DNA of 64,000 nucleotides. Origin: Chloroflexi bacterium OLB13 (GTDB lineage: Bacteria; Chloroflexota; Anaerolineae; Aggregatilineales; Phototrophicaceae). The notes below the pieces were generated by a model, which was given only the letters and a program-made list of their open reading frames with translations, had not been told where the DNA came from and did no database searches. The stretch spans positions 62,001 to 126,000 of the forward strand of contig JZRA01000009.1 of the NCBI GenBank assembly GCA_001567485.1, read 5' to 3'. Every line of letters starts with the position of its first letter. The first letter of the stretch is position 1. The position numbers were made by a program, and so were the translations under genes. This document shows, in pieces, positions 46,659-64,000 of this stretch.

Positions 46659-46680
46659 AGCGCATTAGCGCATTAGCGCG
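46659..46680. repeat. Tandem octamer overlapping the giant gene's stop codon
   Basis: AGCGCATT repeated twice, then AGCGCG. The TAA stop (46673-46675) lies within it, so slippage by one unit would change the C-terminus. Confidence 0.7.
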
Positions 46681-49600
46681 TGCTGGCGAGTTGATCGCCG
46701 GGGCAGACGTTCAGGTTCAGCCCACGGTTGACCCGCGCCGTCGTCGCGACGTTCGACGCGAGGATTTCCGGCCGTTCCTGCAGGAAGCTCGTCTGCAGGC
46801 CAAGGTCGATGTTCACCGCGTAACCTTCGCGGCTGGCGTTCTCTTCGCTCGGCGTCGACAGCGGATAGATATCGCTGCTGACCTCGAACGTCATCTGCAC
46901 GGCGTCGTTCTCGACCAACACCGGGCCGTCATCGATGGGCGACGCCTTGACCTCGAACAGGTTCGGGTCGCCGTCCACGTCGGAGGTGAAGATGATCGTG
47001 TCGTCGTCGCACAGCCAGTTGGGCGCGTAGTCGGCGATGGCGTTATCCGTGAGGTGGCGCGTCTTGCCAGTGGCGACTTCGTACACGTAGATGTCGAGGT
47101 CACCATCCGCGTCGGACTGGTACGCGATGTACCGGTCGCTCGGCGACCACACGGCGTTGGTGGCGTCACCCTCGGTGAACGCGACCCGGCCGGATCCGTT
47201 GAGGTTCATGATCTCGTACTGGCCGTCCGAGTCGGTCGTGGTGTAGCTGCGGAACGTGATCTTGTCCGAGTTGTTGGCGAACTGCGGCTCGACATCGTTG
47301 GTCTTGCCATCGCTCAGCTTGGTGATGACGCCGCTTTCGAGGTTCAGCATGTAGACCTGCCACATCCGCACGCCGTCTTCGTTGGGGGCGTCGCTCTGGA
47401 ACACGATGCGCGACCCATCCGGTGACCAGTGTGCGTTGATGTCATGGCCGATGCTGTCGGTCAGCTGGAACTCGTCGCCGTTGCGCATGTCGATGGCGTA
47501 CAGATCCCAGTTGCCGTTGCGGGTCGACTCGAACACCACGAAGTTGTTGGGGCCCCACACCGGATCGACCTCGTTGGAGAGCGCGCTGAAGGTGACGCGC
47601 ATGACGCTCTCTGGGCCGCCGCCGCTGGTGGGCGCAACATACAGCTCCCAGTTGCCGTCACGGTTGCTCTGGAAGACGACCCACTTGTTGTCCGGCGACA
47701 GGCTCGGCGACGAACTCTTGACGCTCTCGCTCAGGCCGTACGACAGGTTCTCCCGCACGGTCGTGCGCGTCACCTGATCGGCGCTGTCGAGGCGGAAGAT
47801 TTCCCAGCCTTCCAGTTCGTCGGTGTGATACACCTTGAACTCGGGGCAGCCGCGGCCGCAAGCCGGGCCGGCGGTCAACTGGCCGATGGCGGAGGTCTCG
47901 ACATCGAGGTTCGGGAAGTCGACGGCCACGCCGCAGATCAGATCGGTCGTCGCCAGCGTCCCCAGATCGTCGGACACGAACGTGATCCCGGTGCCGGTAT
48001 CGGCATCGGCCGGCGCGTTCAGCGCAACCGATTCATCGGCGTCCAGTTCGAACGAGCCGCTGGTCAGCACGGATTGATCGGCGCTGGAGACGATGCTGTA
48101 GTTGATCGGGCCGGATGACGTCGATCCCGTGTTGGTCACGACGAAGCCGGCAGGCATGCCGCAGACGCCCTCGATGGTGAGGTCGGACGGCAGACCGATC
48201 TCGGTGTCCTCGCACGTGCCGGATGACAGCAGCGTGGCGAGGAACCCGCCGCTGGACGACAGCGAGTAGGTGCCGAGCGGGTTCTGGCCGTCAAGCGTGA
48301 TACCGAGCGACTCGCCCGCGCTGAGCTGGATGTCCTGCGTCAGCACGGTCTGGCCGTCGGCATCGACCACCGTCACGGTCTGCGGGAGCAGCATGTCGGT
48401 GCCGGTGTTGACGATCTGGAACGACGGCGTGGCAGCGCACACGTAGCTAGCGCTGAGGTTCGGGCTGGCGCACTGCGTGAGCGAGTCGATCGCCGTGCCG
48501 TAGCCAAGCATGTCGAACGTGTAGCTGTCGTACGGATTGAGTCCGGTCAGGTCGACGTTGATCGAGCCGCCCGCCGCCAGTGAGACGGAACCGCTGGCGA
48601 CCGTGACGCTGCTGCTGTCGAGCACGTTCCACGGCTCGCTCTGCAGCGCGTCGCCTCCGGTGTTGGTTACGGTGATCGCTACCGGGTATCCGCAGACGTT
48701 GGTCGCCGTGTATTCCGGATACTCGCAGGTGTAGTCGATGGTCAGCGAGTCAGCGAAGCCGTTAGACACCAGCGTGTACGTGCCGTACGGGTCGTCGCCC
48801 GCAGGCTGCGTGAAGGTGAACGACTCACCGGTGTTGAGCAGGAGCGAACCGGAGTACACCACCTGACCGTCACGCAGGATGTCGAACGCCTGCGGCGACA
48901 GCATCGGCGAGCCGTTGTTGGTGATCGTGAAGTAGCGCGGCGCCGTGCATGCCGAACCCGGCTCGAAGTCCGGCTGGCCGCAGTCGTGCGCTACGTTCAG
49001 GGTAGCGGCGAACCCGTTGGTGACGAAGGTGTATTCGCCGTATGGGTTCAGGCCGTTTGGCGCGGTCACATCGACGCTCGCGCCGCCCGCCACGGTGAAC
49101 GTCGCGGTGCGCACGACCGTCGTGCCTTGCAGGATTTGATAGGACTGGTTGGTCAGCATGTCGCCGCCGGTGTTCGAGATCGTGAACCGGCGCGGTTCGC
49201 TGCACACGCCCGACACGGACAGGGCCGGGTTGGCGCAGTCGTGCGGCTGATTGATCGTCGAAGCGAAGCCACTGGTGATGAACGTGTACTGGGCATACGG
49301 GTCAATCGACGTGGGCAGCGAGACGGTCAGCGGGAAGCTGGTCGCGCTTGAGAACGTGCCGGAGACGACCACGGCGCCACTGCCGTCCTGCACCTCGTAA
49401 GGCTGCGACTCGAGGATCGGGCCGCCGGTGTTGGAGACCGTGAACGCACGCGGCCACGAGCAGACACCCGCCGCTGTCAGCACGGGCTGCTGGCACGAGT
49501 CCGAGACGTTGAGGGTCGAGGCGAAGCCTGTCGTCGAGAACGTGTACGTGTCGTACGGGTTCAGGCCATTAGGCACGTTGATAACCGTGCTGCCACCGGA

Positions 49601-52600
49601 CGCGAGCGTGATCGAACCGCTGGCGACGACGCTGCTGCTGCCGTCGAGGATGGTGTACGCCTGCGCCTCAAGCATGGCGCCGCCGCTGTTGGAGACGGTG
49701 AACGAACGCGGTGACGCGCATGTGTACGTCGCGCTCAGCGCCGGACGCTGGCACGTATGGCTCTCGCTGAACGTGCCGACAACGCTGGTGCTGTTGAACG
49801 TATAGGTCGCGTACGGGTCTTCCGAGTCGGGCACGACAAGCTCGATGGAGCTGTTAGCCGGGATTTGGAACGTGCCGCTGTCCGAATACGTCCCGCCGGT
49901 GATCGTGTACGGCTCAGGCTGAACCATCGGATTGGCGCTGGTGTTGTTGATACGGAACACACTCTCCGCCACGCCGTTGGTCGTACGGCAGAACGTATCG
50001 AACGTCAGCGTCGGCAGTTGCGCGCACTGCTGTGACACGTCGAACGTCCCGGTGTAACCGCTGCTGGCGAAGGTGTACGTGTCGTATGGATTGCTGCCGA
50101 CCGGCAGGGTGACGGTGACCGACGGCACACCGAGGCTCAACTGGAACGTGCTGTTGACGACAACGCCAGAGGCAGCGCCCGTGATGGTGAAGCTCTGCGG
50201 GAACGGCATCGGGCCGTCGCTGGGGCGCGCATTGGTGATTGTGAACACAGGCAGGTTGCCCGTGCAGACCGCCGATACGCTGATCTCCGGCGGGTAGTAG
50301 CAGGTCGTCGTCGCGGTGACCGACGGGCGATCCGTCAGGCTGCCGGTGACGTTGCCGGAGGCGTTGCTCACGGTGAAGTTGGCCGATTCGCCCGCGCCGA
50401 GCAGCACCGGGGCGATCAGCAGCACGTTGTTGAGCGAATCGCGGACGACGATCTGGTCGGGGATGCTCATCGCGCTGCCGGTGTTGGTGACCGTGAAGGT
50501 CGCGATGCGGTCGGCCGAGCACGACGCCGACATGCTGAGGTTTGGCGTGCCACCAACAGGCGGAACGTAAGGCACTTCACGGCAGTAGGTGCCGGTGGGC
50601 GTGCCGCCCGGGCCGCTGAAGTCCATGCAGACCTGATACTCGCCCGGCTGGCTGAACGCCGTGTACTGATGGCAGATCTGATTGTTATTGGTGACCGGGA
50701 CGCTGACACCGTCGCCGAAGTCCCACTCGGTGACGTCGACGCCGGGGTCGACCTGCGGGGTGAAGCAGAAGTAGCCGCCGCCCATATCCTGCACCGTGAA
50801 CGACGCGTTGGCCTCGAAGATGCTGTAGGTGCGCACGGTGTTCTGCGCCGACCGATCGAACTGGCTGTTATGGACGATCAGGCGTGGGCGATAGGTCGTA
50901 TCCGGTGAGCCATAAGTGTAGCAGATCGGGTTCGGCGCGCCGCCGGGGCCGTACGACAGATCGATCGTCCCGTCGTCATCGAAGTCCCACTCCCACAATG
51001 TGATATCCGTGCCAACGCTGAGGTCGGTGAAGCACGAGGTCATCGGCGCGACACCGATATACGGGTTCACGCGGAACGCGGCGCGCAGGTCATTGGCCCC
51101 CAGCAGTTCGAAGTCGAGCTGCGCGACGGTGACGCCGAGCGGGCCGGTGCCGCGTACCTCCGCCGTGTATAGGCCGGCGGGCAGCGTGTAACTCCGCGGG
51201 TTGCCGGTGTTGGGGCCGGCGACGAGGGCGCTGGTGTTCCGATCGTAGATGCGCCACGTGTAGCCACTGGAGATGTTGACACCCGTGGCGGTGAACGTTT
51301 GGAGCGTGCCGCCGAAGTCCGAGCCGCTGCGGTTGATCAGGATGCTCTGACGGCCGTAGACGTTGAACGTGCGGGTGAAGTTGTCTTCAAGATCGAAGCC
51401 ACCGTCACCGAAGTTCGGCGTGTGACCGTCGAGGCGGATGGTGTAGGTTCCCGGCGTGTTGAAGCTGATGCAGGCCGCCAAGTCCTGCGTGGTCGCCGAC
51501 GTGATGCCGAGGCTGTTCTGGCCGGCCGTGCCGCTGATCGTCCACAGGTATTCGAGGGCTGCCGGGTTCGGCGCGCCGGCGCTGCCGTTGGTGTCGTACG
51601 ACGTGTTGGTGATGCAGATCGGTTCGTTGACGGGCAGGGCAGCGCGCGTCCAACCGCCGCCGATCACGTCGTTGTACTGTACTTCGATCTGGCCGACGAC
51701 GATGTTGCGCTGCAAGCCGCAGGTGTGCGTCGAATCGGCCGGATTGACCGCCGCGACGTCAATGCGCATAGTGTAATTGCCGAGGCCGTAGTCCGCCGTC
51801 AACTGCGCCCACGTGAAGTTCAGCGATGCGGGCGGCGTGACAACGCCGTTTGCCGCGCTGTCGAACGATCCCATGGGGATAGTCGCGCCGTTCGGCCCGA
51901 TCAGGGTGTAGGTATACCGCAGATTGATGCCGTTACCGTTGTCCATGTTGAGGCGGTAAGGATACACCTCGGACGTGCTGAACACGGTCGGATCGTTGTA
52001 GATTCCGCTTTCACCGGGGAACGAGTCGCAGTCGAAGTTGGTGTCCGGCATGGTCACGGTCAGATTGCGAGCGTTCGTGCACGAGTCGTTCGGCACGCCG
52101 TCGACCGAGACCGTCTGAATGACGCGATACTGCTGGCCGGGGATCAGGAATTGATAGCTGATCGAGTTGCCACTGACAATACCCGGCGGGTTGACGAGCG
52201 TGAGGCCCGGCAGCAGGTACAGCGCCATCGTCTGGGTCACATTACGCCCAAACACGTTGCCGGGGGCGGCTGCGGTGTAGATTTCCGTCTCGCCCACAAC
52301 CGGTGTCGTATCGCCGCTGATTGCGCCGCACGACAAGCGCGGCACGGTCGGCGTCACGTTCAAGTTACAGCTCACCGGGAGCTGCGTGCCGTCTGGATTG
52401 GTGACGGTCGCGGTCAGGCTCACCGAGGAGTTGTACGTATATGCCGGGGTGGATGCCCACAAGACATTGGTGTCGTTGAGCGTCGGGTTGACGATCGTGC
52501 CGTTGACGCCTGCCGACCAAATCGCGTTGCTGACCGGCCGGCCGGTGGTCGTGTAGGTCACGGTGTAGGTCGCAAGACCGCTCGACGTGCCGACGTTGGG

Positions 52601-55006
52601 CAGCGGCGCTGCGGGGCCGCTGATCACGCAGACCGGATCGGGGAACGGCACGGTCTGGAACGAGATTTCTTCGTAACACTCGCTCGTCTCGCCGCCACCG
52701 TTATCGACGACCGCGTCGTAGCGCACGACCCAGCTCGTCGGGCTTGCGATCGTCGCGATCTCGTTGGTGAAGACGTACGGAATCGCGCCGCTGCCGCTTG
52801 CATAAGGCGCACCGTTACGGGTGATCGTCCACGTGCGCGCGATGATCGGACGGCCTGCCGGATCGGTCAGCGAGCCGGTGAACGTGTACTGATCGGAGCT
52901 GGGATACAGCGGGCTTGGGATGGCCGGGCTGACGTTGGCCTCGCAGTTGATCGGCGGGAAGGTCACGTTGACGGTCGTCGCTGTGTTGCAGATGCTGCCG
53001 TCGTCAAGCGTGACTTCGAGCGAGATCAGATAGCTGCCAGCGCCGTAGCTCGCCCAGTTGACGTTCAACGCCGGGTCGGTGACCGTGAGCGGAAGCCCCG
53101 CCGCCGGGCCTGCGAGAATCCAGCGCTGACCTGTCACAGTCCGGCCCTGAAGCTGGCTGGTCGAGTAGGTGTAGCTGGTCGGCCCCGTGCTGGGAACCAC
53201 CTCCAACGGGCCGTTGATCGTGCATCCCGCCTCAAGATAGCTGACGACGAGGATCGCCTCGACGAACGAACTGCCGCCGGGGCCGGTCACGGTCAAGCGG
53301 ATCGGGTTCGGCCCAAGCTGGGTGAACGAGATGCCGGTCGGGTTCTGTACGCTGCTGTCCTCGACGCCGTCGCCGTCGAAATCCCACGACCACGTATCGA
53401 TGACGCCGGTGCTGGCGTCGACAAGGTCAACCAGCGTGCCGAGCGTGATCTCGTTGCCGGGCACGATGCTGAAGACGGCTACTGGCGCGCGCGTCACGGT
53501 GACGAACTGCGCGTCCTCTGCGAAGCCGAAGCTGTTCTCAACGTGCAGCAGGACTTCGACAACGCCTTCGGCTGTGTATTCCCAACACACAACCGAATCA
53601 AGGCTGGTGCTGTCCACGGTGCCGTCGGCGTCAAAGTCCCATTCCACGATGGTGTATGGGCCGACACTTTCGTTGTTGAAGCAGACTTCGATGTTGCCGC
53701 CGGGGATGACGCGCCCGGTAAAGTAGTACGAGAAAACGGCGGTCAGCGGCGCGATATCCGGCTCGACGACCACCTGCTTGAATACTGTGCCGCCACCGCC
53801 CGGCCCGCTGTAATCCATGCGGATCGTGAAGATCGCCTCGGATGTGTACGAATGAGTGTGCGGGCCTTGCCCGGTCGCATCGATATCGAAGGTTGGGGCG
53901 GTGTATTCAAAGTCCCACTCCCACGTCGTGATTGGGCCAGTGCCGAGGTCGACACCTTCAAATTCGACGTCAAGCTGGCCTGCGGTCAACGGGCCAGTCT
54001 GCGGAGACAGGACAAAGTCAGCGGTCGGCGCAGGAGCGTTGACAGTGACCGTCTTTCCCGCGATAGCCGTGCTGGATCCTACTGTTACCGAAAGCCGGAA
54101 TTCGTACGAACCGTACGCTGCGGCGTTGTAGCTGAAATCGCGATTCGTGTTCGTGGCGACTGGCGTCACGTTATCCGGAAGCTGGAAGACTTCCCACAGA
54201 TAGGTTGTGGTCGGCGCGTCCGGCTGGCTCTGGTTAAGGGTCGTGATCGTCAGCGGGCCGTCCGCTTCGATGTAATGCTCGACCACGTAGCCGGGGAGCA
54301 GCTCGAACTGCGCGCTGGCCTGCGGGAGCACCGTGATGCTGCCGGTCAGAACGATGTTCGGGCCGGGGACGCTCGGCGTGCAGGTCAGTGTTACCGGGAA
54401 CGAGCCGGTAGTGGCGTAGGTATGCGCGACATCAGCCGAAGACGACGTGCCTCCATCGCCGAACGTCCACGCCACCGAAGCGATGTTGTGCTGCTCGGCT
54501 GCCCGGAAACGGAAGGAGAACGGGTTGTCGTCGCCGTCGTCCGTGATCTCCATGAGGCAGAACGTCTGATAAAGCTGCGGGCTTGCGCCGCCGTCATCCA
54601 CAGGCCCGCTTGGTTCCGGCGTGACAACCAGTACCGGCGCGTCGGTCGGCTGTTCCGTCGGAACGTCAGTCGGGGCCTCGGTTGGCACGTCAGTGGGTTG
54701 TTCCGGCTCGCTGGTGGGCTGTTCCGGAACGTTAGTGGGCTGTTCAGGGACGTTGGTGGGCTGCTGCGGAACCTCAGTTGGTTCGTCTGGCACGGCCGTT
54801 GGCGGAACCGGCGTCGGCGCGACAGCCGTCGGCTGCGCTGTGGCGATGACCGTCGGCTGGGGCAGGTCGCCCGGGCCTTGCGGTGTTGGCTTGATCCGGC
54901 CATGACCCGCTTGGGAATACGCCGGGTTGGAGAATGCGAATACAGCCAGCACGACCAAGATCGGCGCCAGCCGCAACCACCACTGTCTGTGAGTACCAAT
55001 ACGCAT
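46673..55006 (-). CDS. Giant secreted protein: Pro/Thr-rich stalk, PKD domains, ten-unit beta repeat array and TolB-like propeller
   Basis: 2777 aa from ATG at 55006, with AAGGA about 10 bp upstream; the frame is open 47 codons further but without a site. Signal peptide at residues ~1-30 (NPAYSQA). Residues ~45-140 are a degenerate PT-rich linker (VPEQPTNVPEQPT). Several PKD-type domains follow to ~600 (VAWTFGDGG, WEWDF, EWDFDADG, WSWDFDGDG), then beta-rich segments, two more PKDs (~1300-1480), a ten-unit repeat array (~1485-2360), and a six-bladed PD40/TolB-like propeller (~2400-2690; WSPDGSRIVFQS, WSPSDRYIAYQS). No C-terminal anchor seen. Probably a cell-surface or matrix adhesin, or a glycan-binding protein; no catalytic motif is recognised. 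Own promoter at 55119. Confidence 0.88.
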   Translation of the reverse strand: MRIGTHRQWWLRLAPILVVLAVFAFSNPAYSQAGHGRIKPTPQGPGDLPQPTVIATAQPTAVAPTPVPPTAVPDEPTEVPQQPTNVPEQPTNVPEQPTSEPEQPTDVPTEAPTDVPTEQPTDAPVLVVTPEPSGPVDDGGASPQLYQTFCLMEITDDGDDNPFSFRFRAAEQHNIASVAWTFGDGGTSSSADVAHTYATTGSFPVTLTCTPSVPGPNIVLTGSITVLPQASAQFELLPGYVVEHYIEADGPLTITTLNQSQPDAPTTTYLWEVFQLPDNVTPVATNTNRDFSYNAAAYGSYEFRLSVTVGSSTAIAGKTVTVNAPAPTADFVLSPQTGPLTAGQLDVEFEGVDLGTGPITTWEWDFEYTAPTFDIDATGQGPHTHSYTSEAIFTIRMDYSGPGGGGTVFKQVVVEPDIAPLTAVFSYYFTGRVIPGGNIEVCFNNESVGPYTIVEWDFDADGTVDSTSLDSVVCWEYTAEGVVEVLLHVENSFGFAEDAQFVTVTRAPVAVFSIVPGNEITLGTLVDLVDASTGVIDTWSWDFDGDGVEDSSVQNPTGISFTQLGPNPIRLTVTGPGGSSFVEAILVVSYLEAGCTINGPLEVVPSTGPTSYTYSTSQLQGRTVTGQRWILAGPAAGLPLTVTDPALNVNWASYGAGSYLISLEVTLDDGSICNTATTVNVTFPPINCEANVSPAIPSPLYPSSDQYTFTGSLTDPAGRPIIARTWTITRNGAPYASGSGAIPYVFTNEIATIASPTSWVVRYDAVVDNGGGETSECYEEISFQTVPFPDPVCVISGPAAPLPNVGTSSGLATYTVTYTTTGRPVSNAIWSAGVNGTIVNPTLNDTNVLWASTPAYTYNSSVSLTATVTNPDGTQLPVSCNLNVTPTVPRLSCGAISGDTTPVVGETEIYTAAAPGNVFGRNVTQTMALYLLPGLTLVNPPGIVSGNSISYQFLIPGQQYRVIQTVSVDGVPNDSCTNARNLTVTMPDTNFDCDSFPGESGIYNDPTVFSTSEVYPYRLNMDNGNGINLRYTYTLIGPNGATIPMGSFDSAANGVVTPPASLNFTWAQLTADYGLGNYTMRIDVAAVNPADSTHTCGLQRNIVVGQIEVQYNDVIGGGWTRAALPVNEPICITNTSYDTNGSAGAPNPAALEYLWTISGTAGQNSLGITSATTQDLAACISFNTPGTYTIRLDGHTPNFGDGGFDLEDNFTRTFNVYGRQSILINRSGSDFGGTLQTFTATGVNISSGYTWRIYDRNTSALVAGPNTGNPRSYTLPAGLYTAEVRGTGPLGVTVAQLDFELLGANDLRAAFRVNPYIGVAPMTSCFTDLSVGTDITLWEWDFDDDGTIDLSYGPGGAPNPICYTYGSPDTTYRPRLIVHNSQFDRSAQNTVRTYSIFEANASFTVQDMGGGYFCFTPQVDPGVDVTEWDFGDGVSVPVTNNNQICHQYTAFSQPGEYQVCMDFSGPGGTPTGTYCREVPYVPPVGGTPNLSMSASCSADRIATFTVTNTGSAMSIPDQIVVRDSLNNVLLIAPVLLGAGESANFTVSNASGNVTGSLTDRPSVTATTTCYYPPEISVSAVCTGNLPVFTITNARPSDGPMPFPQSFTITGAASGVVVNSTFQLSLGVPSVTVTLPVGSNPYDTYTFASSGYTGTFDVSQQCAQLPTLTFDTFCRTTNGVAESVFRINNTSANPMVQPEPYTITGGTYSDSGTFQIPANSSIELVVPDSEDPYATYTFNSTSVVGTFSESHTCQRPALSATYTCASPRSFTVSNSGGAMLEAQAYTILDGSSSVVASGSITLASGGSTVINVPNGLNPYDTYTFSTTGFASTLNVSDSCQQPVLTAAGVCSWPRAFTVSNTGGPILESQPYEVQDGSGAVVVSGTFSSATSFPLTVSLPTSIDPYAQYTFITSGFASTINQPHDCANPALSVSGVCSEPRRFTISNTGGDMLTNQSYQILQGTTVVRTATFTVAGGASVDVTAPNGLNPYGEYTFVTNGFAATLNVAHDCGQPDFEPGSACTAPRYFTITNNGSPMLSPQAFDILRDGQVVYSGSLLLNTGESFTFTQPAGDDPYGTYTLVSNGFADSLTIDYTCEYPEYTATNVCGYPVAITVTNTGGDALQSEPWNVLDSSSVTVASGSVSLAAGGSINVDLTGLNPYDSYTFDMLGYGTAIDSLTQCASPNLSASYVCAATPSFQIVNTGTDMLLPQTVTVVDADGQTVLTQDIQLSAGESLGITLDGQNPLGTYSLSSSGGFLATLLSSGTCEDTEIGLPSDLTIEGVCGMPAGFVVTNTGSTSSGPINYSIVSSADQSVLTSGSFELDADESVALNAPADADTGTGITFVSDDLGTLATTDLICGVAVDFPNLDVETSAIGQLTAGPACGRGCPEFKVYHTDELEGWEIFRLDSADQVTRTTVRENLSYGLSESVKSSSPSLSPDNKWVVFQSNRDGNWELYVAPTSGGGPESVMRVTFSALSNEVDPVWGPNNFVVFESTRNGNWDLYAIDMRNGDEFQLTDSIGHDINAHWSPDGSRIVFQSDAPNEDGVRMWQVYMLNLESGVITKLSDGKTNDVEPQFANNSDKITFRSYTTTDSDGQYEIMNLNGSGRVAFTEGDATNAVWSPSDRYIAYQSDADGDLDIYVYEVATGKTRHLTDNAIADYAPNWLCDDDTIIFTSDVDGDPNLFEVKASPIDDGPVLVENDAVQMTFEVSSDIYPLSTPSEENASREGYAVNIDLGLQTSFLQERPEILASNVATTARVNRGLNLNVCPGDQLASTR
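47930..50550 (-). repeat. Ten tandem ~85-aa repeats inside the giant protein
   Basis: Units of about 260 bp with a pattern (P-x-L-x-a-x-x-v-C, FTVSNTGG, PYDTYTF, GFASTL). Each begins with a Cys, and another Cys follows near the join to the next unit, as if each domain were disulphide-linked. Sequence identity between units is moderate and best in the middle ones. Confidence 0.82.
54630..54865 (-). repeat. Degenerate Pro/Thr/Glu-rich stalk repeats
   Basis: Encodes about 80 residues of short PT-rich repeats such as EQPTNVP and DVPTEQPT. Typical of an extended, possibly glycosylated spacer between the membrane and the first PKD domain. Confidence 0.75.
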
Positions 55007-55118
55007 GTGTTGAGTTCCTTTGGCTCGCAGTGCCATTCGATCTTCACGTGCCCGGCATTCATACTGCCTCCGCACGTTGCGATAATCCACGAGCGGCGCA
55101 TAAGTCACCGCCAAGTAC

Positions 55119-55147
55119 AGCATAGTACTTAAGTCATGGTTTATCAA
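55119..55147 (-). promoter_or_regulatory. Promoter of the giant secreted-protein gene
   Basis: Minus-strand -35 TTGATA (55142-55147), 17-bp spacer, -10 TATGCT (55119-55124). Predicted 5' leader of about 105 nt. Confidence 0.62.
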
Positions 55148-55370: not shown

Positions 55371-55396
55371 GGGGGATGCGTGAAAACACATCCCCC
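55371..55396 (-). terminator. Terminator after the hydrogenase/NifJ operon
   Basis: GGGGGATG (55371-55378) pairs with CATCCCCC (55389-55396) around a 10-nt loop, followed on the minus strand by ATGTTGTTTACC, which is U-rich. Lies 33 bp after the dihydroorotate-dehydrogenase-like stop. Confidence 0.6.
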
Positions 55397-55428: not shown

Positions 55429-56430
55429 TTACGAAATGCCAACCGGGTAGTTCAAGATCGCGCGCATATACTGCGCACGTTCGTATGCCGCCGGGTTCTC
55501 GGTGTGCATCTGGCTGAGCGCCCCGCGCAGTTGGCTGACTGACTCATATTCGTGCTGGGCCATGAACTCGCATAGGCCCTGTTCAACCGTTCTGAGGAAG
55601 TCGATCCCGTTGCGCAGCAAGGCAGCGGCCATCATTGTGACTTTAGCGCCGGCCAGCAGTAGTTTGGCTGCATCGTCCCCGCTGTGCACGCCGCTGCTGC
55701 CGGCGAAATCCACTTCGATACGTCCGTACATAATCGCGATCCAGCGCAGCGGCAAGCGCAGCGCTTCCGGCGTGCTGAGCGTCACGCCCGGCTTGACCTC
55801 CAGCAGTTCGAGGTCGATGTCGGGCTGGTAGAAGCGGTTAAACAGGACGAGACCCTTAGCGCCCGCTTCCGCGAACCGCGCGGCCATGTTGACGGGGCTG
55901 CTGAAGAACGGGCTGAGCTTCACCGCCACCGGGATCGACAGGGCGCGCGCCACGCTGCTCACGACTTCGAGATCGGCCCGTTCGACCTCGTCGCCAGTGA
56001 TCTGCGGCGAAGTCGGGATGCTGTACAGATTCAATTCGAGCGCATCGGCGCCCGCCTGTTCGATGAGCGCGGCAGTACGCGTCCAGCGGCCCGGTGTCGT
56101 CCCGTTCAAACTGGCGATGATCGGGATATCCACCGCTTCCTTTGCGCGGCGAATCAGGTTGAGATACCCGCGCGAGTCGGTGTGATATTCGCCGACTTCC
56201 GGGAAATACGAGAGCGCTTCGGCGTGGCTGTCGCTGTGATAGGTCGTGTGATGGAACAGCGCGAGCTGCTCCTGCCGGATTTGTTCCTCGAACAGCGAAT
56301 ACAACACCACCGCACCGGCGCCCGCGTCTTCCATCCGTTTGATGTTGTCAAGCGACTCGGACAGCGGCGAAGCCGATACGACCAGCGGAGATTTCAGCGG
56401 AAGCCCGAGGTAACTGGTTTCAAGGTTCAT
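55429..56430 (-). CDS. Dihydroorotate dehydrogenase-like flavoprotein
   Basis: 333 aa from ATG at 56430 in an ATGA overlap with nifJ. FMN-type TIM barrel opening LETSYLGLPLKSPLVVSASP, with VAVKLSPFFSSP and SGVHSGDDAAKLLLAGA near the FMN phosphate. The canonical NxSCPN active-site motif is replaced by NLYSIPTSP, so it lacks the catalytic Cys/Ser of PyrD in its usual place and may not act on dihydroorotate. Translational coupling to nifJ suggests an electron-transfer or redox role (inference). Last gene of the operon. Confidence 0.9.
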   Translation of the reverse strand: MNLETSYLGLPLKSPLVVSASPLSESLDNIKRMEDAGAGAVVLYSLFEEQIRQEQLALFHHTTYHSDSHAEALSYFPEVGEYHTDSRGYLNLIRRAKEAVDIPIIASLNGTTPGRWTRTAALIEQAGADALELNLYSIPTSPQITGDEVERADLEVVSSVARALSIPVAVKLSPFFSSPVNMAARFAEAGAKGLVLFNRFYQPDIDLELLEVKPGVTLSTPEALRLPLRWIAIMYGRIEVDFAGSSGVHSGDDAAKLLLAGAKVTMMAAALLRNGIDFLRTVEQGLCEFMAQHEYESVSQLRGALSQMHTENPAAYERAQYMRAILNYPVGIS

Positions 56431-59400
56431 CGTTCCTGACCTCCGTTGTTCGATTCGGCGCCGTACGGACGATTTGCGAGGTACTCGTACATCGCCCACC
56501 GGGTATTGACGTCATCCTGCGCGAGTTTGAACAGATCTGCCGCGCTTTCCGGGTTGCTCAGTTCAAGCATCTTGAAGCGGTTTTCCATGCGCAAATAGTC
56601 CTTCAGCCCGATCTTCGGCGGCCGGCTGTCAAGAGTCAGCGGGTTGAGGCCCTGCGCAGCGCGGTCGGGATGGTAGCGGTACAGCAGCCATTGTCCACTG
56701 TCGACCGCCGCTTTCTGGTTCTTCAGGGCGGTGCTCATGTTGATGCCGTGGGCGATACAGTGGCTGTAGGCGATGATAAGCGACGGGCCGTCGTAGGCTT
56801 CGGCCTCCATGATGGCGCGCAGAGTCTGGTCGTCTTTCGCGCCGAAGGCGATACGCGCGACGTACACATTGCCGTAGCTCATGGCGATCATGCCGAGATC
56901 TTTCTTGGCCGCGGGCTTTCCACCTGCTGCGAACTTAGCGACCGCGGCGCGCGGCGTCGATTTGCTCATCTGACCGCCGGTGTTGCTGTATACCTCGGTG
57001 TCGAGGACGAGGACGTTGACGTTGCGGCCGCTGGCGAGCACGTGATCAAGGCCGCCGAAGCCAATGTCGTACGCCCATCCATCGCCGCCGACGATCCATA
57101 CGTCGCGCTTGACGAGCGTATCCGCCAGTGTGAGCAGACGCGCGGCTTGTGGATGGTCGATTGCGTTCAGGCGTTCCTTGAGCGCCGCGACGCGTTCGCG
57201 CTGTTCGTAGATTCCGGCCTCGTCGCGCTGGTCGGCGCCGAGCAGCGCGTTCGCCAGCGTTGTGCCGATGTCCTCGGCCAGCAGTGTGACCAGTTCGCGC
57301 GCTTCCTCGGCCTGCTTATCGATCGCGACGCGGATCCCCAAGCCAAACTCCGCGTTATCCTCGAACAGCGAGTTTGACCACGCTGGGCCGCGCCCGTTGT
57401 GATCGGTGGTGTACGGGGTGGTGGGCAGGTTGCCTCCGTAGATCGACGAGCAGCCCGTCGCGTTGGCGATCACCGCCCGGTCGCCATAGAGCTGTGTGAT
57501 GAGCTTGATGTACGGCGTCTCGCCGCAGCCTGAGCACGCGCCGCTAAACTCGAACAGCGGACGCTGCACCTGCTGTTGGCGGATGCTGCTGGTCTTAATC
57601 ATGCGCCGGTCGAGGTCGGGGATCTCCATGAAGAAGTCCCAGTTCTTGGCCTCGCGCTCGCGCAGCGGAGGCTGTGCTTCCATATTGAGCGCCTTCTTGT
57701 TAAGCGCCGACTTGTTGCGCGCGGGGCAGACATCGACGCAGATCGCACAGCCCGTGCAGTCCTCTGGCGCGACCTGAATGGAGTAGGCCATGCCCTTCCA
57801 CTCGGTGTCGCGTGCTTCCATCGACTTGAACGTCTCGGGCGCATCGGCCAAGACCTCCGGGTCGTACACCTTGATGCGGATCACGGAATGCGGACAGACC
57901 ATCGCGCATTTGCCGCACTGGATGCAGATGTCCGGCTCCCATACCGGGATTTCGGCAGCGAGGTTGCGCTTCTCGTACTGCGCCGTGCCGCTGGGATATG
58001 TGCCGTCGACCGGGAGCGCGCTGACCGGCAGCAGATCGCCCTGCCGCATGATGATCTTACCCAGCACGTCCTTGACGAACGCCGGGGCTGTCGCTGGCAC
58101 CGGGCTGGCGAACCCGCTCACGGCGGTGACTTCCGCAGGGACGTCCACTTCGTAGAGGTGTTCAAGCGTGTTGTCGACCGCCTTGATGTTCATGGCGACG
58201 ACTTCTTCGCCTTTGCGCGCGTAGGTCTTCTCGATCGAGTGCTTGATCGCCTCAATCGCCTCGTCCTTCGGCAGCACGCCGCTGATGGCGAAGAAGCAGA
58301 CCTGCATGACCGTGTTGATGCGTCCGGTCATGCCGCTGGATTTCGCCACGTCATAGGCGTCGATCACGTAGAACTTGAGGTTCTTCTCGATGATCGCGCG
58401 CTGGACGGGTTCAGGTAGATTGTCCCAGACCACGTCCTTGCCCCAGAACGTATTGAGCAGGAACACGCCGCCCGGCGCTGCGTCCGCGAGCATGTCGTAT
58501 CGCTCGAGGAACGTCTGCTGATGACAGGCGACGAAGTTGGCTTGGGTGATGAGATACGGCGATCGGATCGGCTGTGGGCCGAAGCGCAGATGCGACACCG
58601 TCATCGAGCCGGACTTCTTCGAGTCGTACACGAAGTAGCCCTGTGCGTGGTTGTCGGTCTCCTCACCGATGATCTTGATCGAGTTCTTATTGGCGCCGAC
58701 CGTGCCGTCTGAGCCGAGGCCGTAGAAGATCGCCCGGACGACGTTCGCCGGTTCGATCGAGTAGGCCGGGTCGTAGTCGAGGCTGGTGTGTGACACGTCG
58801 TCAATGATGCCAACCGTGAAGTGATTCTTGGGGCGCTCGGCGGCGAGATTGTCGAACACCGCCTTGACCATCGCCGGGGTGAACTCCTTCGACGACAGGC
58901 CGTAGCGCCCGCCAACGATCCGGGGCGGGACAGCAAAGTGGTCGGTCTCCACCGTCGCGGTCACGACGTCGACATACAGCGGCTCACCCGCGGCGCCCGG
59001 CTCCTTGGTGCGATCCAGCACGGCGATACGCTTGACGGTCTGTGGCAGCGCGGCCATCAGGCGGGCGGCGTCGAACGGCCGGAACAAGCGCACTTTCAGC
59101 ACGCCGACCTTTTCGCCGGCGGCGTTGAGCGCATCGACGGTCTCGTGCAGCGTCTCGCACCCTGAACCCATCGCCACGATAACGCGCTCGGCGTCCGGCG
59201 CGCCGTGGTATTCATAGGGCTTGTATGCGCGGCCGGTCAGTTCGGCGAACTGCGCCATCACGTCCTCGACGATGTCGAGCGCGGCGGCGTAGTAAGGGTT
59301 GACCGTCTCGCGGGCTTGGAAGTACACGTCGGGGTTCTGAGCGGTGCCGCGTACCACCGGATTCTCCGGCGTGAGCGCGCGGCGGCGGTGTTCCGCGATC

Positions 59401-59993
59401 AGCTTGTCGTCGATCAGCGCGCGTAAGACATCGTCGGTCAACGGCCGAATCTTGGCGACTTCGTGCGAGGTGCGGAAGCCGTCGAAGAAGTGCACGAACG
59501 GCACACGCGCGCGCAGTGTCGCGGCCATCGCGATCAGCGCGAAGTCATGCGCCTCCTGCACCGAGGCTGACGCCAGCAGCGCCCATCCCGTCATGCGCGC
59601 GGCCATGACGTCGCTGTGATCGCCGAAGATGGAAAGCGCCTGCGCGGCCAGCGACCGCGCCGCCACATGAAAGACCGCCGGCGTCAGCTCACCCGCGATC
59701 TTGTACATATTCGGCAGCATGAGCATCAAGCCTTGCGAGGCCGTGAACGTAGTGGTTAACGAGCCTGCTTGCAGCGCTCCATGAACCGCGCCTGCGGCCC
59801 CCGCCTCGCTCTGCATCTCGATGACGCGCGGAACGGTTCCCCATAGGTTCGGTTTGCCTTGCGCTGACCACTCGTCCGACCACTCACCCATCGCCGATGA
59901 CGGTGTGATCGGATAGATCGCGATCACTTCGCTCAGCTTATAGGCGATGCGTGCGACGGCTTCATTGCCGTCAAGGGTGATGAAGTCTGCCAT
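56427..59993 (-). CDS. nifJ: Pyruvate:ferredoxin (flavodoxin) oxidoreductase
   Basis: 1188 aa, single-chain enzyme that oxidises pyruvate with CoA to acetyl-CoA, CO2 and reduced ferredoxin. In order: N-terminal pyruvate-site domain with YPITPSSAMGEWSDEWSAQG, the transketolase-C-like and gamma domains (FYGLGSDGTVGANKNS), two 4Fe-4S clusters (CIQCGKCAMVCP and CTGCAICVDVCP), a further CSGCGETP with the distant TGCSSIYGG, and the thiamine-binding site GGDGWAYDIGFGG with DTEVYSNTGGQ. Ribosome site GAGGAG precedes the ATG. It follows hypF by 103 bp and overlaps the dihydroorotate dehydrogenase-like gene. Confidence 0.98.
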   Translation of the reverse strand: MADFITLDGNEAVARIAYKLSEVIAIYPITPSSAMGEWSDEWSAQGKPNLWGTVPRVIEMQSEAGAAGAVHGALQAGSLTTTFTASQGLMLMLPNMYKIAGELTPAVFHVAARSLAAQALSIFGDHSDVMAARMTGWALLASASVQEAHDFALIAMAATLRARVPFVHFFDGFRTSHEVAKIRPLTDDVLRALIDDKLIAEHRRRALTPENPVVRGTAQNPDVYFQARETVNPYYAAALDIVEDVMAQFAELTGRAYKPYEYHGAPDAERVIVAMGSGCETLHETVDALNAAGEKVGVLKVRLFRPFDAARLMAALPQTVKRIAVLDRTKEPGAAGEPLYVDVVTATVETDHFAVPPRIVGGRYGLSSKEFTPAMVKAVFDNLAAERPKNHFTVGIIDDVSHTSLDYDPAYSIEPANVVRAIFYGLGSDGTVGANKNSIKIIGEETDNHAQGYFVYDSKKSGSMTVSHLRFGPQPIRSPYLITQANFVACHQQTFLERYDMLADAAPGGVFLLNTFWGKDVVWDNLPEPVQRAIIEKNLKFYVIDAYDVAKSSGMTGRINTVMQVCFFAISGVLPKDEAIEAIKHSIEKTYARKGEEVVAMNIKAVDNTLEHLYEVDVPAEVTAVSGFASPVPATAPAFVKDVLGKIIMRQGDLLPVSALPVDGTYPSGTAQYEKRNLAAEIPVWEPDICIQCGKCAMVCPHSVIRIKVYDPEVLADAPETFKSMEARDTEWKGMAYSIQVAPEDCTGCAICVDVCPARNKSALNKKALNMEAQPPLREREAKNWDFFMEIPDLDRRMIKTSSIRQQQVQRPLFEFSGACSGCGETPYIKLITQLYGDRAVIANATGCSSIYGGNLPTTPYTTDHNGRGPAWSNSLFEDNAEFGLGIRVAIDKQAEEARELVTLLAEDIGTTLANALLGADQRDEAGIYEQRERVAALKERLNAIDHPQAARLLTLADTLVKRDVWIVGGDGWAYDIGFGGLDHVLASGRNVNVLVLDTEVYSNTGGQMSKSTPRAAVAKFAAGGKPAAKKDLGMIAMSYGNVYVARIAFGAKDDQTLRAIMEAEAYDGPSLIIAYSHCIAHGINMSTALKNQKAAVDSGQWLLYRYHPDRAAQGLNPLTLDSRPPKIGLKDYLRMENRFKMLELSNPESAADLFKLAQDDVNTRWAMYEYLANRPYGAESNNGGQER

Positions 59994-60096
59994 GAGAAAT
60001 CTCCTCTAATTCACCCGTATCCTCAACGTTTCCCTTGTGCTCGCCGCGCGTTATGGTGTTCCTCGGTGCTGGCGTATTGCCGGCGAGCTGCTCTCC

Positions 60097-62367
60097 TTAC
60101 CTATAAACGTCGCCGCATGCGGATGCGGCAAGCTGTCCAATCGCGATCGCGCCGTCGTTCGGCGGCAGGTCGTGCGGCCAAAGCACCTCAAAGCCGGATG
60201 CTTTTAGCCGCGCCGTTGTCCGCCCTAACAGCAGTCTGTTCTGGAAACACCCTCCGCTCAGGATGACCGTTGGCTCGTCGGCCGCGCGCGCCACCGCCAG
60301 CGCCATTTCGGCCAGCGTGTTGTGGAACTTGGCGGCGGCTTCGCCGGCGGAACGGGTCTGCGAGTCGGACATCATCCCTCGAATAATCGGCCTCCACTCC
60401 ATGATCCATCGCACGGGGGCTTTATCGACAGTGAAGGACGTCACTTGGAACGGGTAATATTCGTCCGTGCTGACGGTTCGCGCGGCGGCCTCGAGCAGCA
60501 TCGCCGCCTGCCCCTCAAACGAACATGTCTGCGCCAAGCCGAGCAGCGCGGCGGCGGCATCGAATAAGCGCCCCATGCTGGCGCAGCGCGGGCTGTTTAC
60601 GCCGCGCTCAACGGCACGCAGCAGCACACGTAGCTCGCTGGCGGTGAAGTGCAGCAAATCAATGGGCGGTGCGCCGTCGAACGCCGCCCACAGCGCACCG
60701 AGCGCGCTCCGGCGTGGTTCGCGCGCGGCAGCATCTCCGCCCGGCAGCGGAAACGGCGCAAGCTGTGCGACATGTTCTAGCGGCTGGCCCGGCACGACCC
60801 GAAACCGCCTCGCTGCCCCAGATCGTGCCGTCGGGCCGTACCCCGTGCCATCCCATGCCAATCCGAGCGCGCGGCCTGTAAAACCTGTCTCGGCGAGGAC
60901 AGCGTAGACGTGCGCGGCATGATGCTGCACGCGTTGGATGGGCTGGCGATAGTCGCGTGCCATGTGCGACGTGGCGTAATCAGGGTGAAGATCACAGACG
61001 ACGACCGCCGGCCTTGTGCGGTGAAAGGCGGTGAGGTGGTCAACAGCTTGTGCGATTGACTGCTGCGTGCGGATGTCGTCGGCGTCGCCCAAGTGCGGAC
61101 TGAGGCTGATCACGCCGTCGTGGCTGAGGGCAACCGTGACTTTTTGATTCGGCCCGACGGCGAGCGTGCCGCTGGGCGGGACGGCTGCTTGCAGCGCCAC
61201 CGCCTGTGCATAGCCACGCGCGCGGCGCAGCATGAGCGTCTCGCCGCCAACGACGGTCACGACGCTGTCGTCCACCGCTGCGGCAATGGGCCGGTCGTGC
61301 ATCAGCACCGCATCCGCGATGGTGGCGAATTCGTCCAGCGCCTCAGCGTCGTCAATAATCATCGGCGCGCCCGACACGTTGCCGCTGGTGCAGACCACCG
61401 GAAAGCCGAGGTCGGCCATCAGTAGGTGATGCAGCGGCGTGTAGGGGAGTATCGCGCCAACGGTGTCCAGCCCCGGCGCGATTTCATCCGGCAGCGAGCC
61501 GCGCGAGTCGAGCAGCACAATCGGGGCTTGGCGCGACGTGAGCAAAGCGCGCGCTTCCGGCGGTACGGCGCACGTAGAATCGACATCTGCGAGGGTTGGG
61601 AACATCACCGCCAGCGGTTTGTGCGGACGGTTCTTGCGATCACGCAGGCGTTGAATCGCGTGGCCGTCGCGGGCGTCGCACAGCAGTTGATAGCCGCCGA
61701 TCCCCTTTAGCGCGATGATTCCGCCGGCTCGTATGATGTCCCCGGCCTGTCGTAGTGCGTCGTCGCGGTGTGCTGCCGCCTTGCGGTCGATCATCAGCGT
61801 GAGCTGTGGGCCGCAGCGTGGGCAGGCGATCGGCTGGGCGTGAAAGCGGCGATCTGACGGGTCGTGATATTCCGCGCTGCACTCCGGACACAGCGCAAAC
61901 GCGCGCATCGTTGTGTTGGCGCGGTCATAAGGCAAGCCGGTGACGATTGTCACGCGTGGCCCGCAGTGTGTGCAGTTGAGGAATGGATAACGGTAGCGCC
62001 GGTCATCCGGATTGAACAGCTCGCGCAGGCAGTCGTCGCAGGTGGCGAGGTCGGGCAGCACTTCCGCCGTCAGCGCGCCTTCGACATGGCTGTCGATGAT
62101 GACGAATTCGACCGCGCCGGTAGCGGGAAGATCGACCCGGCTCATCGTATCGACGCGGCCGGGCGCAGGCAGCTCTGCTGCGAGCCGCCGTTCGAACTGA
62201 CCGAGCGCATCCGCAGCGCCTTCGATTTCGACCGCTGCGCCCTGCGGCGTGTTAGCGACCGTCCCGGTCAGCCCCAGCGACCGGGCGAGGGTATACACGA
62301 ACGGCCGAAAGCCGACCCCCTGCACGGCCCCGGTGACGATCAGGCGGCGGCGGCTGATCGTAGTCAC
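60097..62367 (-). CDS. hypF: Carbamoyltransferase HypF for NiFe-hydrogenase maturation
   Basis: 756 aa, GTG start at 62367 in a GTGA overlap with the protease. Makes the CN ligand precursor from carbamoyl phosphate. Domains: acylphosphatase-like (TGAVQGVGFRPFVYTLARSL), two zinc-finger CxxC pairs (CDDC with CTHC, CPEC with CPRC), a YrdC-like domain (GIIALKGIGGYQLLCDA, RKNRPHKPLAVM), and a Kae1-like domain with HHAAHVYAVLAETG and LSGGCFQNRLL. Complete. Coupled to the hydrogenase subunit and protease. Confidence 0.97.
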   Translation of the reverse strand: MTTISRRRLIVTGAVQGVGFRPFVYTLARSLGLTGTVANTPQGAAVEIEGAADALGQFERRLAAELPAPGRVDTMSRVDLPATGAVEFVIIDSHVEGALTAEVLPDLATCDDCLRELFNPDDRRYRYPFLNCTHCGPRVTIVTGLPYDRANTTMRAFALCPECSAEYHDPSDRRFHAQPIACPRCGPQLTLMIDRKAAAHRDDALRQAGDIIRAGGIIALKGIGGYQLLCDARDGHAIQRLRDRKNRPHKPLAVMFPTLADVDSTCAVPPEARALLTSRQAPIVLLDSRGSLPDEIAPGLDTVGAILPYTPLHHLLMADLGFPVVCTSGNVSGAPMIIDDAEALDEFATIADAVLMHDRPIAAAVDDSVVTVVGGETLMLRRARGYAQAVALQAAVPPSGTLAVGPNQKVTVALSHDGVISLSPHLGDADDIRTQQSIAQAVDHLTAFHRTRPAVVVCDLHPDYATSHMARDYRQPIQRVQHHAAHVYAVLAETGFTGRALGLAWDGTGYGPTARSGAARRFRVVPGQPLEHVAQLAPFPLPGGDAAAREPRRSALGALWAAFDGAPPIDLLHFTASELRVLLRAVERGVNSPRCASMGRLFDAAAALLGLAQTCSFEGQAAMLLEAAARTVSTDEYYPFQVTSFTVDKAPVRWIMEWRPIIRGMMSDSQTRSAGEAAAKFHNTLAEMALAVARAADEPTVILSGGCFQNRLLLGRTTARLKASGFEVLWPHDLPPNDGAIAIGQLAASACGDVYR

Positions 62368-62831
62368 ACGGCCGCCGTACCGCCCGGCGCATGCAGGACG
62401 GCATCCACGACGGCGTCGGCGCGTGCCACGATCTCCGGCACTTGTGCGCGCAGCGTCGGCGACAACGACAGCCCGAATGCAAACGATTCGGCCCCGATCG
62501 AGATGATCTGCGCGGAGGGCCGGCGCCCATACAGCAGACCCGCGGAACGCAGCAGCGACTCCGGCGCAGCGTGATGTGTCAGCGCGGCCCGCGAGTCGGC
62601 TGCTGCGACCGGCGCGATACGCACCTGTCCTACCGGCAGTTCCGCGTTCGCGTCGATGAAGATCACGTGATCGGCGCGGCTAATCGGCGCGGCGTGTTCT
62701 GGCATCAACTGTGCTGCCGTGATGATCTGTACGTCCGACGCGCTGTATCGCTCGTCTAAGGCGTGCGCGACGACATGCCCGATGGCGTCATCTGTGCGCA
62801 GCGTGCTGCCGTAGCCGATCACGAGAATCAT
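62364..62831 (-). CDS. NiFe-hydrogenase maturation protease (HyaD/HoxW type)
   Basis: 155 aa from ATG at 62831, an ATGA overlap with the hydrogenase gene; the longer frame lies inside it. Family motifs: GYGSTLRTDDAIG near the start, FIDANAELPVG with an Asp nickel ligand, and HHAAPESLL with a His ligand. Cleaves the C-terminal tail of the large subunit after nickel insertion, and the neighbouring subunit has such a tail. The usual Glu in the first motif is not in its common position (GSTLRTDD), but the Asp is kept. Confidence 0.93.
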   Translation of the reverse strand: MILVIGYGSTLRTDDAIGHVVAHALDERYSASDVQIITAAQLMPEHAAPISRADHVIFIDANAELPVGQVRIAPVAAADSRAALTHHAAPESLLRSAGLLYGRRPSAQIISIGAESFAFGLSLSPTLRAQVPEIVARADAVVDAVLHAPGGTAAV

Positions 62832-64000
62832 CGCTTGAGCACCTCGACGACTTCGCCGTTTGGCGTGAGAAGTTCGACCTGCATGGGCATCTGGCCGACC
62901 GCGTGGGTTGAACAGCTCAGGCAGGGATCGAACGCGCGAATGATCGACTCGACGCGATTGAGCATACCGTCGTTGAGGCTTCCGCCGCGAACGTAACGCT
63001 TGGCGACCTCGTACACCCCGCGATCCATCGCGTAGTTGTTGTTGCCGGTCGCGATGATCAGGTTGGCGCGGGTGATTAGTCCGTTGTCGTCGATCTCGTA
63101 GTGGTGCAGCAGCGTCCCGCGCGGCGCTTCGCTGATGCCAACGCCCCACGACCGGTTCGGCTCTGCCACGGCGCGGGTTCGCTTGCTCAAGATGTCCGGT
63201 TCGCGCAGCAGCATCCCGACCTTTTCCAGCCCGTACATGATCTCGATCAGGCGGGCCGTGTGGTAGTGGAATGAACTCTGTGTATCCTGTTCGCGGAATA
63301 GGCCGAGGTATTCGTCAGCGCGCGGCGTGCCGCACCGGCCAACAATGTTGAGGCGTGCCAGCGGGCCGACACGATACACGCCGTCCGGATAACCCATCGG
63401 CCGATAGAACGGCGTCTTGAGAAACGACCACGGCTCGACCGCTTCTTGCAGAAACTCGGTGTAGTGGTCGGCGCTCAGCTGATCGGCGATCACCTCACCA
63501 GTGCCGTTGATGATGCGCACTGGGCCGTCGTAGAACTCCAGCGTATTCTCGGCGTTCGTCAGGCCCATAAACAGCGTCTTGACGTTTGCGAACGTCGCGA
63601 TCTCGTCCTCGAAGTATGGGAGAACCGTGCGGTACCACTCTAGGGTGCGCCGCGCGATGTCCAGCCCTTCGGGGATCATTGCGAGCATCGCATCCCGCGC
63701 ATCCTCGCTCAACGGCGCATTCACGCCGCCCGGCACGACCCAGCCCGGATGAATACGCTTGCCGCCCAGCAGTTCGATGATCGTCTGGCCGATCTGCCGC
63801 AGGCGCACGCCGTCTCGCGCCAGTACCGGGTCGGCCTCCGCCACGCCGAACAAACTGCGCTTTTCCGGGACTTCGTCCATGCCCAGCAGCAGATCAGGCG
63901 ACGACAGGTAGAAGAAGCTGAGCGCGTGGCTCTGGATCATCTGCGCGAGGTTGAGGATTTGCCGCAGTTTGGTCGCGGTCTCCGGGATCTCGACCGCCAG
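62828..64000 (-). CDS. NiFe-hydrogenase large subunit (group 3 type), N-terminus outside window
   Basis: The last 391 codons are visible and the frame is open to position 64000 (reading LAVEIPETATKLRQIL). It carries the C-terminal nickel motif DPCLSCSTHAVGQMP; the first CxxC motif would be outside. The tail after the last ligand His is AVGQMPMQVELLTPNGEVVE and four more residues, matching a substrate of the protease encoded next. Shape and motif suit bidirectional, cofactor-linked (HoxH-like) enzymes, but group assignment needs the rest. Confidence 0.92.
   Translation of the reverse strand: MAVEIPETATKLRQILNLAQMIQSHALSFFYLSSPDLLLGMDEVPEKRSLFGVAEADPVLARDGVRLRQIGQTIIELLGGKRIHPGWVVPGGVNAPLSEDARDAMLAMIPEGLDIARRTLEWYRTVLPYFEDEIATFANVKTLFMGLTNAENTLEFYDGPVRIINGTGEVIADQLSADHYTEFLQEAVEPWSFLKTPFYRPMGYPDGVYRVGPLARLNIVGRCGTPRADEYLGLFREQDTQSSFHYHTARLIEIMYGLEKVGMLLREPDILSKRTRAVAEPNRSWGVGISEAPRGTLLHHYEIDDNGLITRANLIIATGNNNYAMDRGVYEVAKRYVRGGSLNDGMLNRVESIIRAFDPCLSCSTHAVGQMPMQVELLTPNGEVVEVLKR

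Follow-up and report, generated by a model that had tools for sequence, protein, structure and literature searches.

A 2777-residue exported Chloroflexi protein with a variable repeat array as a candidate stalk displaying a propeller

What might a single exported protein of 2777 residues, built of PKD domains, Cys-bounded repeats and a propeller, do for its cell, and which of its ends would face outward? The question is raised by a gene in a 64,000-nucleotide stretch of the Chloroflexi bacterium OLB13 genome (GenBank assembly GCA_001567485.1, contig JZRA01000009.1, positions 62,001 to 126,000), referred to here as the window and numbered from its first letter. We lean towards the view that the protein is an exported, probably cell-tethered, periscope-like stalk that displays its propeller. 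In this arrangement a Sec signal would export the protein, and the N-terminal end with its proline/threonine-rich (P/T-rich) spacer would be cell-proximal. About 20 small beta-sandwich domains would form an extended rod, consisting of a near-constant PKD block followed by a variable number of Cys-locked repeats resembling fibronectin type III (Fn3) or immunoglobulin (Ig) domains, and the C-terminal propeller at the far tip would be the head that meets a ligand, a changed repeat number giving a changed reach. The rod shape, the N-terminal tethering of the window protein, ligand binding and a role in contact are the steps that we infer.

Domain architecture and predicted folds

The gene and the parts of its product, with the basis for each, are as follows.

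46673..55006, minus strand: whole gene, 2777 amino acids (open reading frame and homologues)
54908..55006, minus strand: export signal (Sec), residues 1-33, which looks cleavable (sequence; cleavage presumed)
54602..54907, minus strand: P/T-rich spacer, residues 34-135 (composition)
53234..54568, minus strand: PKD domains 1-4 and one degenerate domain, residues 147-591 (Pfam and own profile)
51107..53233, minus strand: Cys-bounded PKD/Ig-like domains of uncertain type, residues 592-1300 (Cys spacing)
50567..51106, minus strand: PKD domains 5-6, residues 1301-1480 (own profile)
47933..50545, minus strand: ten Cys-bounded Fn3/Ig-like repeats, residues 1488-2358 (Cys pairs, profile, predicted fold)
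46778..47866, minus strand: beta-propeller module, residues 2381-2743 (Pfam, profiles, predicted fold)
46823..46873, minus strand: conserved DIYPxxxPxEENASREG motif near the module end, residues 2712-2728 (alignment)

The initial annotation, which named no strand, had described one 8.3-kb gene that combines a PT-rich stalk, at least six PKD-like domains, ten repeats of an unnamed Cys-bounded beta domain and a TolB-like propeller, with neither a recognisable catalytic domain nor a C-terminal anchor, and this anatomy is borne out for the window protein. On the minus strand 2777 stop-free codons run from an ATG at 55006 to a stop ending at 46673. The spacer is 27% Pro and 16% Thr. Six PKD domains are clear, with Pfam matches to PKD_4 (5.1e-25, four stretches) and PKD (5.5e-9, three stretches), both above cut-off; a profile built from the six copies scores all six at 87–109 bits, as expected by construction, and gives weaker partial matches elsewhere. 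In the region of uncertain type the cysteines stand at 595-673, 688-777, 793-880, 893-976 and 993-1096, where the pairing is presumed from the spacing.

The repeats number exactly ten, with Cys pairs at 1496–2358. When each was scored against a profile of the other nine, it received 33.9–102.4 bits, whereas the best scores among 100 shuffles of each were 5.3–14.2 bits, indicating that the array is not a chance pattern. A model of three repeats (residues 1755–2009, 27-row alignment) has a predicted local distance difference test score (pLDDT) of 96.0 and a predicted template-modelling score (pTM) of 0.84. Compared with tandem fibronectin III it gives Z 9.7 with a root mean square deviation (rmsd) of 11.9 over 242 residues, and a single domain gives Z 9.6 with an rmsd of 2.3 over 82 residues; the large whole-array value is as expected if the angles between domains differ. 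The matches are to tandem fibronectin III and Ig-type folds, with segments of large adhesins from bacteria (6xi3, SiiE 2yn5) also among them, so that the model points to an Fn3/Ig-type sandwich, presumably locked by disulfides. No Pfam family matched the repeat significantly (best CARDB, E 0.0064, in one of 17 members), nor did any PDB profile (best the S-layer protein Sap, E 0.013). Assignment to a known family was rejected because these matches are insignificant and the fold matches generic, and the repeat appears from its sequence to be a domain undescribed among the Pfam and PDB profiles compared.

The TolB-like nature of the propeller is reflected in its matches to PD40 (2.3e-26) and to the PDB profile of TolB (1.1e-11). 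The module shares the propeller fold and PD40 repeats of that superfamily, but it scores 146 bits against the NCBIfam TolB equivalog, below the cut-off of 343.15, does not match the N-terminal part of TolB and has ends of its own, a Cys at the start and ENASREG at the end. A model of the propeller plus tail (43 rows) has a pLDDT of 88.6 and a pTM of 0.89, with low confidence beyond model residue 340; 34 residues trail the propeller in the window protein. Structural matches of the model are to an S9 peptidase, in its propeller part (Z 30.1 with an rmsd of 2.5 over 303 residues), to oligogalacturonate lyase (Z 24.3) and to TolB (Z ~22), and the shared fold, as modelled, would reveal no function. 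The only enzyme family to pass its Pfam cut-off was DPPIV_N, at 24.5 against 22, and this family too describes a propeller region; the Pfam scan of the window protein matched no S9-type hydrolase domain after the propeller. The C-terminus has no LPxTG-type motif, Pfam SLH match or hydrophobic segment.

Several related proteins are encoded elsewhere in the same genome. A second full copy of the module (L002/L045, G000:C96:47065-48075) lies in a 563-residue open reading frame (ORF) made up only of an export signal, a P/T-rich spacer and the propeller. At their ends, other propeller-type proteins share a motif of a different type, which reads DPFGGCTQSQTPPEE in L132 (G000:C19:1-9967), where it occurs twice, and GECTQSHIPPEG in L130 (G000:C125:10000-15500). 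Contig C16 breaks off within a lipobox-bearing PKD-repeat protein (L139, G000:C16:1-6000, minus strand), and a PKD ORF enters from the start of contig C37 (L140, G000:C37:1-5000); repeats may have broken the assembly at these two points.

Distribution of the family and variation of the repeat array

Searching for homologues in Anaerolineae, as the initial annotation had suggested, recovered a family, and no close, characterised homologue with an enzyme function was found. The whole protein matched 75 of 101 relatives (its own genome included) at 1e-20, many through PKD or propeller parts only. At 1e-85 the propeller profile (A1) matched 61 of the order's 154 genomes and, among the sampled genomes, none outside it. 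At 1e-60 it matched 25 of 346 genomes across the class, 11 within the order and 14 outside; the best of these 14 reached 1.5e-80, and in 11 of them the match stops at profile position 302–321 of 359, so that these genomes lack the ENASREG end. Across the phylum the 1e-60 threshold was passed by 12 of 301 genomes, all from the window's class and its own genome among them. From these sequences, the complete propeller module would define a lineage-specific family of the order. Of the 61 best named loci (L046–L106), 56 bear the titles of Chloroflexota lineages and five those of Rhodococcus, Bacteroidetes or Pleurocapsa; the latter records (L084, L090, L100, L102 and L103) are probably mislabelled bins. 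The repeat profile (A4) matched six of the 301 phylum genomes, namely the window's own and five that belong to a single genus, in a different family of the class. No published account of this protein family was found in the literature on Chloroflexota or Anaerolineae surface proteins, giant or PKD/propeller proteins and anammox metaproteomes, a search that left subscription papers mostly outside.

Length variation is concentrated in the repeats. In 17 proteins, the window's included, that cover at least 1284 of the 1334 residues of the PKD block, the distance from the start of this block to the first repeat is 1170–1445 residues (L072 starts at a contig edge), and the repeat array spans 165–1249 residues in 2 to 13 copies, a 7.6-fold range. 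The first two repeats of the window protein are 52–58% identical to their counterparts in the same positions in L047 and L049, whereas the inner repeats show no position-by-position pairing across proteins, as in an array that grows and shrinks inside. The array of L054 has expanded by pairs, repeats 3, 5 and 7 being 76–79% identical to one another and repeats 4, 6 and 8 61–72%.

Inner repeats 2–6 of L058 and L064 are 96–100% identical in protein while 25–46% of their synonymous sites differ, and within the two arrays synonymous divergence (dS) is 0.31–0.72 and non-synonymous divergence (dN) 0–0.034. Between L058 and L064, dN and dS are 0.068 and 0.668 for the PKD block, 0.020 and 0.309 for the propeller region, and 0.011–0.028 and 0.465–0.713 for repeats 1–6. 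Had these repeats been copied or converted recently, their DNA would be alike as well; selection therefore seems to hold the protein sequence of the repeats in these two proteins.

Orientation, role and alternative readings

All five A4-matched relatives from the other family begin with a motif ending in Cys, which we take to be a lipobox, followed by a P/T-rich spacer, the repeats and the propeller, with the PKD domains absent; in each the repeats stand just ahead of the propeller in the same ORF. Within the order, L106 has a lipobox, and a third group (L074–L078 and L093) starts with about 20 hydrophobic residues and then GGDDD, a beginning that resembles an uncleaved membrane anchor. Close homologues of the window protein have an AxA-like site in the signal. 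In the relatives, the N-terminus is thus likely to lie nearest the cell and the propeller farthest from it, and because a lipobox or an anchor-like N-terminus occurs in proteins whose parts come in the same order, the propeller of the window protein is also the probable distal tip. The absence of an anchor noted initially therefore holds for the C-terminus of the window protein, but not for its relatives, which have N-terminal lipoboxes or anchor-like starts. The first Cys of the window protein does not occur before residue 150, and it is consequently not a lipoprotein.

In Periscope Proteins (SasG, Rib, Sgo_0707), a variable number of tandem folded domains sets the reach of a functional domain (PMC8201768). 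Our family likewise has tandem folded domains, with 2–13 copies among homologues of different species and signs of internal expansion. In contrast to the N-terminal head of Periscope Proteins, the propeller is C-terminal and the anchor-like features of the relatives are N-terminal. Near-identity of repeats in Periscope Proteins goes with DNA identity, whereas the DNA of the L058 and L064 repeats differs at many synonymous sites. As it lacks two of their defining features, near-identical repeats (in this copy) and an N-terminal head, the protein is best filed as a variant of, not a member among, Periscope Proteins, working as a variable-length stalk that displays a head. Similar to the fibrillar adhesins (PMC9210967), it is large, is exported and has a stalk made of repeated Ig-like or PKD domains, here represented by PKD_4 and PKD above cut-off and by the predicted Fn3/Ig-like repeats. 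Pfam gave no known adhesive domain. The window protein shows no cell-surface anchor, and the five distant relatives have a lipobox. The text of that paper mentions neither propellers nor Chloroflexi.

Several observations weigh against a tethered stalk of the periscope kind. The ten repeats of the window protein are only 25–54% identical to one another, a diverged array rather than one of the near-identical kind; the variation in repeat number that was observed is variation between species; near-identical inner repeats occur in only two of the seven arrays compared (L058 and L064), and this pair was picked for the dN/dS comparison after its near-identity had been seen. The window signal, moreover, combines an AxA-like site with a hydrophobic core of about 13 residues, and cleavage may therefore release the protein.

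Such release would suit a matrix protein, many copies of which would cross-link the extracellular polymer of flocs or biofilm, and this is the alternative that we take most seriously while still considering it unlikely. The window protein has neither a lipobox nor a C-terminal anchor, and AxA-like sites occur in 35 of the 41 rows scanned, the window's included, although the pattern is not strict, picks out the anchor-like group as well, and was applied to rows that include a few ORFs from outside the family. Against it stand the lipoboxes of relatives with the same order of parts (the five distant ones and L106), and the long P/T-rich spacer right behind the signal would fit best beside an anchor.

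It is doubtful, though conceivable, that the family forms an N-anchored reversed periscope system of Anaerolineae in which each repeat is a working unit, for example a homotypic cell–cell zipper or a glycan site. Inner repeats would then stay identical in protein while their DNA drifts, as in L058 and L064, and copy number would alter avidity as well as reach. If so, these proteins could help bind flocs and granules together.

A component of a surface-layer (S-layer) lattice is improbable. Going by the title of Jing et al. 2002, archaeal surface-layer proteins reportedly carry PKD and propeller domains, the same kinds as in our protein although the lineage differs, and the repeat has its weak match to Sap. 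A lattice protein would be expected to be near universal and stable in size, whereas the module is found in a minority of the genomes of the order and the array varies 7.6-fold in length.

About as improbable is a role of the propeller as a sorting or docking module that fixes varied passenger regions to the envelope and is hence itself cell-proximal. The module is the last domain in all 61 ORFs counted, a set that omits L107–L123 (17 of 78 loci, 24–30% identity); 60 ORFs end at most 57 residues past it and one at 110, while the part upstream ranges from <100 to >3300 residues. L107 has tails of 216 and 3 residues. In a control, however, the match lay within 45 residues of the ORF end in eight of 16 other ORFs of this genome that bear a propeller, so the position is not distinctive of a sorting module and was dropped as proof of such a role. 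The N-terminal lipoboxes of the relatives, moreover, put the opposite end at the membrane, and no partner gene is conserved.

An enzyme, with the propeller as a PL22-type lyase or the remnant of an S9-type peptidase, is very improbable despite the fold matches to both, as there is no hydrolase domain, Pectate_lyase22 (PL22) scores 26.5, below its cut-off of 30, with a best stretch of 34 residues, and the 16-row propeller alignment has one invariant His where a PL22 lyase needs several.

The contact between cells or with polysaccharide proposed in the initial annotation thus stands in part: an extracellular surface or matrix role agrees with the architecture, the differing repeat numbers, the confinement to a single class and the lack of an enzyme domain, while contact itself is conjectural. 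For the stalk that we favour, the interest lies in its bearers. Sludge flocs, granules and mats commonly contain Anaerolineae, whose means of holding on are poorly known; type IV pili have been credited with cell aggregation in Anaerolinales in one report (PMC4877987). The family offers a testable set of candidates: its repeat domain is undescribed, its head module is specific to the lineage, and its members differ naturally in length.

Gene start and surroundings

The following sites precede the gene.

55016..55021, minus strand: AAAGGA, Shine-Dalgarno-like, 9 nucleotides ahead of the ATG (sequence)
55119..55147, minus strand: promoter-like TTGATA-17-TATGCT (consensus match only)
55371..55396, minus strand: terminator-like hairpin between the upstream gene and the 2777-residue gene (pattern match only)

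The promoter-like match and the hairpin behind the upstream gene, both mere consensus matches, suggest that the gene may be a transcription unit of its own; five promoter-like sites were seen in the region against 2.1 expected, and two terminator-like hairpins against 5.6 expected by chance. The opposite strand is broken by several stops across 46673–55006, and a plus-strand ORF of 1277 residues at 51299–55132 was judged mechanical. The protein is acidic, with a net charge of −194 and 11 Lys among its 2777 residues.

No neighbouring gene is conserved: when the window was compared with 29 other loci, each neighbour family was common to six of them at most, and an operon partner or dedicated secretion gene was dropped as a candidate on this ground. 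A neighbouring protein of 219 residues has no Pfam match. The window neighbours are metabolic and include a GH2-type mannosidase, a sugar ABC transporter, pyruvate:ferredoxin oxidoreductase, HypF and a hydrogenase. Among them, a row for anaerobic metabolism occupies 55429–63940 on the minus strand, encoding a DHO_dh-like protein, the pyruvate:ferredoxin oxidoreductase, HypF and the hydrogenase, which is of the nickel type.

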